Source of the DNA: Phascolarctobacterium sp. ET69
Lineage (GTDB): Bacteria > Bacillota > Negativicutes > Acidaminococcales > Acidaminococcaceae
DNA length: 64,000 nucleotides
Direction of reading: 5' to 3'
Assembly (NCBI RefSeq): GCF_023336935.1
Contig: NZ_JAMBLR010000003.1
Location: 186,001-250,000 of the forward strand
A model generated the notes under the pieces. It was not told where the DNA came from. It worked only from the letters and a program-made list of their open reading frames with translations, and did no database searches. Shown here piece after piece: positions 3,580 through 7,161 of this stretch; the stretch's first letter is position 1; each line of letters begins with the position of its first letter. The translations under genes were made by a program, and so were the position numbers.

Positions 3580-4025
3580 TCCGCCAGTTTTCTGCCGGCG
3601 ATATTACAGAGGTTAGCAAAATAGAAAACAGCACGTTTTTTGACGCCTGGAACGAAAGCATGTGGCTGGACGAACTTAACAACAGCCTTACAACATACAT
3701 TGTTATGGAAGAAAACGGCAAAGTTACAGGCTATGCCGGGTACTGGCTGGTGGCAGGCGAAGCGCAGATTACGCGCGTAGCCGTTGTCGCAGGAGAGCGC
3801 GAGCGCGGGCTGGGCACCAGGCTTACGGCGGCGCTGATTAACCTTGCGTGGAATGAAGGCGCCGACGCCATAACGCTGGAGGTGCGCCAGAGCAACACAG
3901 CCGCACAGAAAATGTACTTAACCTGCGGCTTCCGCGCCGAAGGCGTGCGCCCCGGCTATTATGCCGATAACCACGAAGACGCCGTAATTATGTGGCTGTA
4001 CAGGGAGGCTGAAACCAATGAGTGA
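3552..4025 (+). CDS. rimI: Ribosomal protein S18-alanine N-acetyltransferase RimI
   Basis: GNAT-family N-acetyltransferase, 157 residues. Acetyl-CoA binding motif A is seen at ITRVAVVAGERERGLGTRLT, and the C-terminal NTAAQKMYLTCGF segment is the motif B Tyr loop. RimI acetylates the N-terminal Ala of S18; in many bacteria it lies between tsaB and tsaD, exactly as here, so the specific name rests on motif plus context. It overlaps both neighbours (28 nt with tsaB, 8 nt with tsaD), indicating one translationally coupled unit. Confidence 0.9.
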   Translation: MGTEARETVIRQFSAGDITEVSKIENSTFFDAWNESMWLDELNNSLTTYIVMEENGKVTGYAGYWLVAGEAQITRVAVVAGERERGLGTRLTAALINLAWNEGADAITLEVRQSNTAAQKMYLTCGFRAEGVRPGYYADNHEDAVIMWLYREAETNE

Positions 4026-5031
4026 AGACATTTATATACTCGGCATTGAATCGAGCTGTGACGAAACTGCCGCTGCCGTTGTAAAAAACGGGCGCGAGGT
4101 TTTAAGCAACATCATTGCCTCGCAGGTGCCCATTCACCGCAAATACGGCGGCGTAGTGCCGGAAATTGCCTCGCGCAACCATATACGCAATGTACTGCCG
4201 GTAATAGATGAAGCGCTTGCCAAAGCACAGGTGCCGCTGGAGAAAATAAACGCCGTTGCCGTAACTTACGGACCGGGGCTTGTAGGCGCGCTGCTGGTGG
4301 GCCTTTCGGCAGGCAAAGCGCTGGCCTGGGCGGCAGACAAGCCGCTGATAGGCGTAAACCATCTGGAAGGGCATGTTTTTGCCAATTTTTTAAACGATAA
4401 AGACCTCAAGCCGCCGTTTCTCGCACTGGTTGTAAGCGGCGGGCATACGGCGCTGCTGGTTGTAAAGGATTACAACAGTTTTGAACTTCTGGGCCAGACC
4501 CGCGACGATGCCGCCGGTGAAGCCTTCGATAAAGTGGCGCGTGTTTTGGGGCTGCCTTATCCCGGCGGGCCGGAGGTGGAAAAACTGGCGCTGGACGGCA
4601 ACCCGCTGGCGATAGATTTTCCGCGTGCCAAGCTGGGCAACAATTTTGAATTCAGCTTCAGCGGCTTAAAATCGGCGGTTATCAACTACCTGCACAATAA
4701 ACAGCAGGCGGGCGAAGAAGTAAACCGCGCCGATGTTGCAGCGTCGTTTCAATATGCCATTGTGGACGCACTGGTGCAGAAAAGCGTGCACGCCCTTAAA
4801 GAAACTGGCTTGAAAGAAATTGTCCTTGCAGGCGGCGTATCGGCCAACAAAACCTTGCAGAATACACTGGCAAAGGCGGCAGAACGCGCCGGAGCGCGCC
4901 TGGTTCACCCGACTCCGATACTCTGCACGGATAATGCCGTGATGATTGCCTGCCGCGGTTATTTTATGTATATCAACGGGGAGAAAAGTCCCCTTGGTTT
5001 GAACGCTGTTCCATCGTTAAAATTGGGATAA
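4018..5031 (+). CDS. tsaD: tRNA N6-adenosine threonylcarbamoyltransferase TsaD
   Basis: Catalytic ASKHA ATPase that transfers threonylcarbamoyl from TC-AMP to tRNA A37. Seen: GIESSCDETAAAVV at the N-terminus, metal-binding His pair in NHLEGH (about residues 115-120), VSGGHT phosphate loop, and AGGVSAN and CTDNAVMIA near the C-terminus. 337 residues, full length. Last gene of the tsaE-tsaB-rimI-tsaD cluster, overlapping rimI by 8 nt. Its stop codon borders the DnaA-box-rich spacer. Confidence 0.97.
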   Translation: MSEDIYILGIESSCDETAAAVVKNGREVLSNIIASQVPIHRKYGGVVPEIASRNHIRNVLPVIDEALAKAQVPLEKINAVAVTYGPGLVGALLVGLSAGKALAWAADKPLIGVNHLEGHVFANFLNDKDLKPPFLALVVSGGHTALLVVKDYNSFELLGQTRDDAAGEAFDKVARVLGLPYPGGPEVEKLALDGNPLAIDFPRAKLGNNFEFSFSGLKSAVINYLHNKQQAGEEVNRADVAASFQYAIVDALVQKSVHALKETGLKEIVLAGGVSANKTLQNTLAKAAERAGARLVHPTPILCTDNAVMIACRGYFMYINGEKSPLGLNAVPSLKLG

Positions 5032-5203
5032 ACACTGTCTATAATGTGAACTACAAACTGTGGAAAACGTGCAAAACTCTGTGAAAAAGCATAGAATTGC
5101 ACCCAATGATTGCGGAAAACTCTGTGCATAATGTGGATAACACTGTGAATTACGGTGTAAAACACTAATGTTGTAAATTTTTTGAAAACTTGGGATTAAC
5201 ACT
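5032..5203. promoter_or_regulatory. Spacer with a cluster of DnaA-box-like 9-mers
   Basis: Reading for TGTGNATAA (complement of the DnaA box TTATNCACA), two perfect copies stand head to tail at 5123-5131 (TGTGCATAA) and 5132-5140 (TGTGGATAA). Copies with one mismatch are at 5036-5044, 5059-5067, 5080-5088 and 5144-5152, and one with two mismatches at 5045-5053. All point the same way. An AT-rich stretch (5165-5200) follows, just before the kinase gene. No dnaA or other origin gene is visible nearby, so I call it a DnaA-binding or regulatory locus rather than oriC. Confidence 0.5.
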
Positions 5204-6577
5204 ATGTTAAAAAATCTTAACAGTGAACAGAAAAATATACTGGCTTCTATCAGGCAGGGCATGGATTTTGCAGCCGATATTGCCCACGCCTGCATTACAG
5301 TGTACCTTGCGTCGGATGACAAACGTTTTTTGCGTGTTTACCATCAGTCCATGCCAAAAACGCAGTTTTTGCAGCAGCCGGAACTGGCGCCCGGGCGTGA
5401 GGTACGCATCAGCGAAGAACCGCTGATTGCCCGCTGTCTGCAGCGCAATGTTCCGCTTGAAGGCAAGCGCGAGCTGAGCCTCGGGCAGTTTGCCGGCGTG
5501 CGCGTGTACCCCGTGCAGGACAGGCGCGGCAAATGCTTTGCCGCCGTGGTGTTTGATTTAAGCGGCGTTGACGATATTTTTATTAACGTGGCGTTTGAAT
5601 TTTTAAAAACACCGGCACGCCCCGAGCAGGACAGCGAGTTTTACCGCCGCCTTGCCCCGGGTGATGCGCTGATGGTGGTTGACGCGGAGAAAAAAATAAT
5701 CGCGGCCAATTCCACCGCCCGGCATATTTTTCAGGTGGTGGGCATTACAACGCCAATCGGCCTGCGTACCAACAGCGTGCAGATTAACTGGCCGCTGGTA
5801 GGCATGGTGCTTAAAACCGGCACGGCCGAAGGCAAGGAAATCCGCCTGCGCGGCATGCTTTTGGCCATGCGCGTGGTGCCTGTCGGCGGCACGGCGGAAG
5901 CAAGCTATGCCATTGTAATTTTGCGCGATATTACCGAACTGAAAAAGCGTGACGAAGAACTGCTTGTTAAAGCAGCGGTAATTAAAGAGATACACCACCG
6001 CGTAAAAAACAACCTGCAAACCATTGCCAGCCTGCTGCGCCTGCAAATGCGCCGCGCCAAAGCGGACGAAACCAAAAGCGTGCTGCGTGACTGCATCAGC
6101 CGCGTAAACAGCATTGCCGTTGTGCACGAATTTTTGGCGCAGCAGGGCAGCGGCACGGTGGATATGGCAGCGGTGGCGCAGGGAATTTACAAAGCGGTGC
6201 TCAGCGGCATGGCTGCGCCGGAACTGCGCCTTACAACCGGATTCAGCGCCGATAACGTTGTTATTCCTTCGGAAAAAGCAACCAGCATGGCGCTGGTATT
6301 AAACGAAATGCTCCAAAACTGCTTTGACCATGCCTTTACAGGGCGCACGCAGGGCGCCATCAGCGTGGAGCTGAAAAAAACAGAAAGCGGCTGCCGCCTT
6401 ACCGTATGCGACGACGGCAACGGCCTGCCGCCGGGATTTAACGGCGTGCCGCATAGCAGCTTGGGCCTGCGCATTATTAAAACCATGGCCGAAGCCGATT
6501 TACACGGAACTTTTAAAATAGAAAACAGGCCGCAGGGAGGAACCTGCGCCGAAGTAGCAATACCTTTGGGGGGATAA
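5204..6577 (+). CDS. Sensor histidine kinase, HisKA_2 type (PdtaS/EutW-like)
   Basis: A 457-residue kinase without transmembrane segments, so probably cytosolic. An N-terminal sensor region (about 1-130, resembling the H_kinase_N/GAF type) is followed by a PAS-like domain (about 145-250), and a HisKA_2 dimerisation domain with the phospho-accepting EIHHRVKNNLQT motif (His264). A HATPase domain follows with LNEMLQNCFDHA (N box), CDDGNGLPPG and SLGLRII (G boxes). This kinase subclass pairs with ANTAR-output regulators, and the next gene, 2 bp downstream, is one. No clear Shine-Dalgarno precedes ATG 5204, which fits weak or regulated translation. The signal is unknown; ethanolamine (EutW), nitrogen and redox cues are known in relatives. 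Confidence 0.88.
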   Translation: MLKNLNSEQKNILASIRQGMDFAADIAHACITVYLASDDKRFLRVYHQSMPKTQFLQQPELAPGREVRISEEPLIARCLQRNVPLEGKRELSLGQFAGVRVYPVQDRRGKCFAAVVFDLSGVDDIFINVAFEFLKTPARPEQDSEFYRRLAPGDALMVVDAEKKIIAANSTARHIFQVVGITTPIGLRTNSVQINWPLVGMVLKTGTAEGKEIRLRGMLLAMRVVPVGGTAEASYAIVILRDITELKKRDEELLVKAAVIKEIHHRVKNNLQTIASLLRLQMRRAKADETKSVLRDCISRVNSIAVVHEFLAQQGSGTVDMAAVAQGIYKAVLSGMAAPELRLTTGFSADNVVIPSEKATSMALVLNEMLQNCFDHAFTGRTQGAISVELKKTESGCRLTVCDDGNGLPPGFNGVPHSSLGLRIIKTMAEADLHGTFKIENRPQGGTCAEVAIPLGG

Positions 6578-6579
6578 AA

Positions 6580-7161
6580 ATGGAAGGGTTAAAAATTATT
6601 ATTGCCGATGACGAAGCGTTAATCCGCCTGGATTTGCGCGAAATGCTGACAGAAGCGGGGCATACGGTGCTTGGCGAAGCATCTGACGGCGAAGAAGCCG
6701 TGGAGCTTGCCCGGCGCTTAAAGCCTGATTTGGTTATTATGGACGTGAAAATGCCGAAGATGGACGGCATTACGGCAGCCGGAATTATTACCGGCCAGCA
6801 TATTGCGCCTGTGCTTCTTTTAACTGCTTACAGCCAGCAGGATGTGGTTGAGCGCGCCAACAGCAGCGGCGTAATGGCATATCTGGTTAAGCCGGTGCGC
6901 GAAGAACAGCTTTTTGCCACCATGCAGGTAGCCATTGCCCGCTTTAAGGAATATCAGAAGATGGACAGCGAACTTGCTGGTTTGCGCGAAAGCCTTGAAA
7001 CACGCAAACTGCTTGACCGCGCCAAAGGCATACTAATGGCGGCACACGGCTTTACGGAGGACGAAGCATACAGCAAAATGCGCCAGTACAGCATGAACCG
7101 CCGCATAACCCTTAAAGAGCTTGCCGAGGCCGTTATTGCCTCGGCAGAAAAGAAAAAATAA
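6580..7161 (+). CDS. ANTAR-domain response regulator (transcription antiterminator)
   Basis: Receiver domain (1-120) with acidic pocket Asp10/Asp11, phospho-acceptor Asp55 (VIMDVKMP) and Lys104 (LVKPV), joined by a short coiled coil to a C-terminal ANTAR domain (about 128-190; LDRAKGILMAAHGFTEDEAY). ANTAR proteins bind twin hexanucleotide-loop hairpins in leader RNA and prevent terminator formation. Cognate to the kinase directly upstream. No convincing twin-hairpin target was found elsewhere in this window, so its regulon probably lies outside. Confidence 0.93.
   Translation: MEGLKIIIADDEALIRLDLREMLTEAGHTVLGEASDGEEAVELARRLKPDLVIMDVKMPKMDGITAAGIITGQHIAPVLLLTAYSQQDVVERANSSGVMAYLVKPVREEQLFATMQVAIARFKEYQKMDSELAGLRESLETRKLLDRAKGILMAAHGFTEDEAYSKMRQYSMNRRITLKELAEAVIASAEKKK

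Follow-up and report, generated by a model that had tools for sequence, protein, structure and literature searches.

The spacer behind tsaD in the window (the whole 64,000-nucleotide stretch of Phascolarctobacterium sp. ET69 DNA that was analysed) holds two same-strand arrays of DnaA boxes. These probably form an extra-origin DnaA-box cluster that would titrate ATP-DnaA and would be the counterpart, by position, of the Bacillus subtilis gcp/ydiF cluster; following established gene naming, we take gcp to be tsaD. What is known of extra-origin DnaA clusters in Bacillota comes mainly from B. subtilis, and their importance there is disputed. A cluster that stays at a single gene phylum-wide, with strand and spacing unchanged, next to a neighbour that changes, argues for selection on the cluster itself. 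Since the array provides a simple search motif and is a single deletable locus in many species, the titration idea is directly testable.

All boxes in the spacer between tsaD and the kinase gene that follows it are of the TGTGNATAA type. The initial annotation had described two perfect 9-mers head to tail and four one-mismatch copies, in one orientation within 117 bp, and these were recovered as described: the perfect boxes (5123-5131 and 5132-5140) abut with no gap, and the one-mismatch boxes start at 5036, 5059, 5080 and 5144. It had also listed one two-mismatch copy, which is present, but more than one can be read (TGTGAACTA at 5045, CGTGCAAAA at 5068 and TGCGGAAAA at 5111). Absent from that annotation was the geometry. 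The boxes fall into two arrays, A and B, exactly 64 bp apart, with steps of 9 and 12 bp in the pattern box-0-box-3-box (Table 1). The AT content of the spacer is 65%, against 54% for the genome.

Table 1. Features in and around the tsaD/kinase spacer (window coordinates)
Feature	Position	Strand	Basis and remarks
tsaD (gcp); array tied to its 3' end	4018..5031	+	TIGR03723 and PF00814; ORF
Promoter-like match TTAAAA-17-TATAAT	5017..5045	+	10/12; could serve the kinase; weak
DnaA-box cluster, every box TGTGNATAA-type; two perfect and four one-mismatch boxes	5036..5152	+	Box scan
Outlying one-mismatch box TGTCTATAA, overlapping the -10 of the promoter-like match	5036..5044	+	
Array A, TGTGGAAAA-CGTGCAAAA-3 bp-TGTGAAAAA (5059, 5068, 5080)	5059..5088	+	Box and triplet scan; triplet score 20/24
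Array B, TGTGCATAA-TGTGGATAA-3 bp-TGTGAATTA (5123, 5132, 5144), with a degenerate two-mismatch box 12 bp ahead (5111)	5111..5152	+	Triplet score 23/24, the best triplet of the genome
AT-rich stretch, array B to kinase start	5153..5203	.	Sequence itself
Sensor histidine kinase, PdtaS-like; not tied to the array	5204..6577	+	HisKA_2, HATPase_c; GAF_PdtaS slightly below cut-off
Response regulator with ANTAR domain, PdtaR-like; neighbour	6580..7161	+	Domain search

Is such a cluster exceptional in its own genome? A scan that covered about 98% of the 1.88-Mb, 11-contig assembly found 56 perfect DnaA boxes, and the tsaD site is the sole place where two of them lie within 200 bp, in agreement with the initial judgement that the density is above chance. 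The genome-wide box count that had been proposed as a check revealed only two comparable clusters, one at oriC in the dnaA-dnaN spacer (C2:16035-16194) and the other at C3:2495-2715. When triplets were ranked over the whole assembly, array B headed the list (23/24), ahead of the dnaA-dnaN spacer (22/24) and, in third place, the C3 cluster at 2.5 kb (21/24); array A was next, its 20/24 tied with two C2 sites. The tsaD site is thus made up of several boxes clustered outside oriC beyond chance, as expected of an extra-origin cluster. It shares the box-0-box-3-box triplet with the genome's own oriC (C2:16165-16194), and differs in having a second same-strand array 64 bp off. That the tsaD array is built like the organism's own origin array is the best evidence here for DnaA as its binding protein.

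The C3:2495-2715 locus is a second extra-origin cluster of about ten boxes, with steps of 9 and 12 bp like those of the tsaD site; it lies upstream of a PF16257 (tagaturonate epimerase-like) gene, some 1.6 kb ahead of rpsF-ssb-rpsR. On contig C2, at 25170 and thus about 8 kb away from dnaA, a perfect DnaA box just past a noc/parB-like gene starts a weaker triplet-like match (20/24).

To survey the region beyond this genome, stretches downstream of tsaD were sampled from 30 genomes of the family, 40 of the class and 62 Bacillota-wide (132 in all), with the tsaD stop placed approximately for L137-L176. Boxes with at most one mismatch numbered 389 on the tsaD strand against 46 on the opposite strand and 44 in a Markov control (maximum over 50 runs, 61). 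Three or more boxes were present in 67 of the 132 spacers where 0.66 would be expected, and the commonest inter-box distances were 9 bp (81), 21 bp (73), 12 bp (61) and 64 bp (44), these totals counting related genomes more than once. In the Bacillota-wide subset, a non-random set made up of the two ends of a similarity list plus two genomes, 35 of the 62 had at least three boxes.

An evenly drawn set of 101 Bacillota genomes was searched in full for the triplet, with at most two mismatches. This gave 74 matches, whereas the reversed pattern gave none. A total of 35, from as many genomes, sit 16-3180 bp downstream of tsaD, every one of them on the tsaD strand. At two mismatches, none of the 101 genomes showed a triplet closer than 2 kb to dnaA; the oriC of the Phascolarctobacterium genome reaches its 22/24 when a T in the third box is accepted. 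Among Negativicutes, 39 of 120 genomes had a match, and the sole match in the Phascolarctobacterium genome is the tsaD site. The array is missing in about half of the genomes sampled (those with groES or groEL adjacent, those of high GC and several Negativicutes families) and is therefore dispensable. Mapped onto a quick 90-row TsaD tree with some long branches, the array-presence label needs 17 changes, as against 29.1 when shuffled, and 0 of 500 shuffles were as low. The simplest reading of these sequences would be one old site that was passed down together with tsaD and disappeared on several occasions, though it may instead have been gained repeatedly.

Comparison of the spacer in close relatives, another check suggested at the outset, showed the boxes to be conserved. 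Neither of the two outcomes that had been named as refuting the initial reading was therefore seen, since an equal density elsewhere in the genome was confined to oriC and one further cluster. Five congeners (TsaD identity 95%) keep the arrays while individual boxes gain or lose matches; array A starts with TGTGGATAA-CGTGCATAA in three of them and with TGTGAATAA-TGTGCATAA in a fourth, which are better than the window's. In P. faecium DSM 14760 (84% TsaD identity) the spacer is largely different and the boxes are present nonetheless, and other genera of the family have two arrays with steps of 12 and 9 bp. The inter-box sequence turns over and the box pattern persists. One genus, with a CIRCE-like groES leader behind tsaD, lacks the array. 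In genus g2 of the family (G001, G004, G005, G009) several perfect box pairs occur within about 12 kb of one region; where examined, none lies behind tsaD, and the cluster layout seems different.

The B. subtilis gcp/ydiF locus is said to be one of six extra-origin clusters described by Okumura et al. in 2012. Like the window's site, it lies directly 3' of tsaD, has several DnaA boxes, is outside oriC and is origin-proximal (0.15 of the genome there), and intermediate genomes carry the array at this same chromosomal position. The likeness is one of position; the next gene, ydiF, is convergent in B. subtilis, whereas in the window the kinase follows on the same strand. Of the two loci, DnaA binding and physiology are demonstrated only for that of B. 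subtilis. In vitro, one of the eight regions that B. subtilis DnaA binds most strongly is annotated 'downstream of gcp; downstream of ydiF'; it has 10 sites, and at 55 nM ATP-DnaA is preferred 16-fold (PMC4447404). Joint deletion of six extra-origin clusters leads to early initiation (PMC5295017; PMC13220808), a single cluster having no strong effect and the effect appearing only when all six are deleted. The role of the clusters is played down in PMC5295017.

By extension, DnaA would bind the near-consensus boxes of both same-strand arrays at the tsaD site, and the contiguous head-to-tail spacing of 9 and 12 bp would let ATP-DnaA oligomerise. Judging from B. subtilis and from E. coli, in which DnaA boxes concentrated near oriC titrate DnaA (PMC12371093), the array would withhold a block of ATP-DnaA from oriC; passage of the fork would double the site, the free DnaA pool would fall, and re-initiation would be delayed or prevented. 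The E. coli locus datA is similar in being a DnaA-box cluster outside oriC that lowers initiation. It differs in acting with IHF to drive ATP hydrolysis and in adjoining another gene; B. subtilis has neither IHF nor datA (PMC13220808).

Does the array belong to tsaD or to the gene behind it? In Negativicutes the usual gene after tsaD encodes a PdtaS-like kinase, followed in the window by an ANTAR regulator, and the cluster lies between tsaD and this kinase gene, its first box overlapping the -10 of a promoter-like match (Table 1). In B. subtilis, DnaA is known to act as a transcription factor, for example at sda (PMC4447404). Bound to arrays just downstream of such a promoter, it could repress or tune the PdtaS/PdtaR-type system according to replication status. 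We nevertheless consider transcription control an unlikely explanation of the array. The promoter match is near chance level (2 of this grade observed against 1.2 expected), and the array is retained where tsaD is followed by lgt, a radical-SAM/PDZ gene, a gene for 5-formyltetrahydrofolate cyclo-ligase or a Mur ligase, or others, while several Negativicutes (L137, L142, L145, L151) have the kinase behind tsaD without the array. Because the next gene changes freely and the array stays, the array follows tsaD and not the kinase, and a tie to the kinase as the cause of conservation was rejected. The initial annotation had offered a datA/DARS-like locus or DnaA control of the two-component system; a titration-type cluster survives from this as the best reading, whereas kinase control cannot explain the conservation and is possible as a secondary role. 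Also compatible with a changing neighbour is that array-bound DnaA acts as a roadblock ending transcription of the tsa operon, or as an insulator of the next gene, given that the arrays lie behind tsaD on its own strand (35/35) regardless of what follows. Strand cannot separate a roadblock from titration, since tsaD is co-directional with the replication fork in most of the closed genomes looked at. The B. subtilis cluster, however, sits between two convergent 3' ends and yet ranks with oriC in DnaA affinity, and we regard a roadblock or insulator as decidedly improbable.

If bound DnaA is the point, the site could instead be DARS-like, helping ADP-DnaA to release its nucleotide and so promoting initiation. 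E. coli DARS1 and DARS2 are also short DnaA-box clusters outside oriC, and sequence alone cannot tell a sink from a reactivation site. They reactivate DnaA, however, and nothing at the tsaD site points to that; moreover the long same-strand array differs from the short DARS core, and removing the B. subtilis clusters (this locus presumably included) gives early, not late, initiation. A DARS-like function is accordingly improbable. A secondary or former replication origin would account for the triplet shared with the dnaA-dnaN spacer and for the AT-rich stretch after it. The GC skew, put forward earlier as a way to exclude oriC, is positive on both flanks of the tsaD site (C3); the sign changes at dnaA, where C2 begins, and reverts in C1. 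The dnaA gene stands on that different contig amid the canonical rpmH-rnpA-yidC-jag-mnmE-mnmG-rsmG-noc genes, and, as had been pointed out, neither dnaA, dnaN nor gidA is near the tsaD site, which coincides with no skew switch or origin genes. Since the skew switches at dnaA and not here, the tsaD site is no origin, and we hold such a history to be extremely improbable. Chance, base composition or a simple tandem repeat can be dismissed for practical purposes: the boxes are AT-rich and AT-rich spacers do yield some one-mismatch matches, but the counts far exceed those of the shuffled, reversed and opposite-strand controls, the genome scan also rules against chance, and no tandem repeat was found at the site. 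An RNA element was rejected as well, no Rfam family coming near its gathering score and the two weak matches being to animal microRNA models.

In a separate line of analysis, the distance from dnaA to tsaD was 0.09-0.36 of genome length (median 0.18) in 18 closed or nearly closed chromosomes, some with sizes rounded to 0.1 Mb. This is closer to the origin than a uniform expectation (KS p 0.003), and no fixed distance from oriC was found in these 18. An origin-proximal position would suit early doubling of the site, although the figures describe tsaD with or without the array.

Arrays at the same place and on the same strand in about half of the sampled Bacillota, together with a DnaA-binding cluster there in B. 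subtilis, suggest that the tsaD array probably serves, and has long served, to restrain DnaA. A bolder proposal, which we advance tentatively and with some doubt, is that it may be an ancestral Bacillota DnaA-regulating site: a fixed two-array scaffold, built on the oriC triplet, that would assemble a defined ATP-DnaA oligomer and set the timing of initiation. It would have stayed at one gene ever since Negativicutes and the other Bacillota lineages last shared an ancestor, and would be a separately arisen functional counterpart of datA. The cluster type is already known; its phylum-wide conservation and its geometry appear to be unreported. In the literature searched, which did not extend to the primary B. 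subtilis papers (Okumura 2012, Ishikawa 2007), no paper has both tsaD and DnaA boxes.

Two neighbourhoods deserve mention in their own right. In most of the Negativicutes families sampled, tsaD is followed directly by the PdtaS/PdtaR-like kinase and ANTAR regulator, an arrangement that is conserved; two genomes with groEL next to tsaD lack the array. Twenty of the other triplet matches were inspected. About half of them have a comFC-like gene on one side and, on the other, the gene for the ribosome hibernation factor (hpf) beside secA, a setting seen in many Bacillota genomes, so a second conserved site may exist. In some further genomes a triplet is near hpf and fliS/flagellar genes (the stretches concerned in the two settings are L240, L242, L243, L245, L246, L248, L251, L255 and L256).
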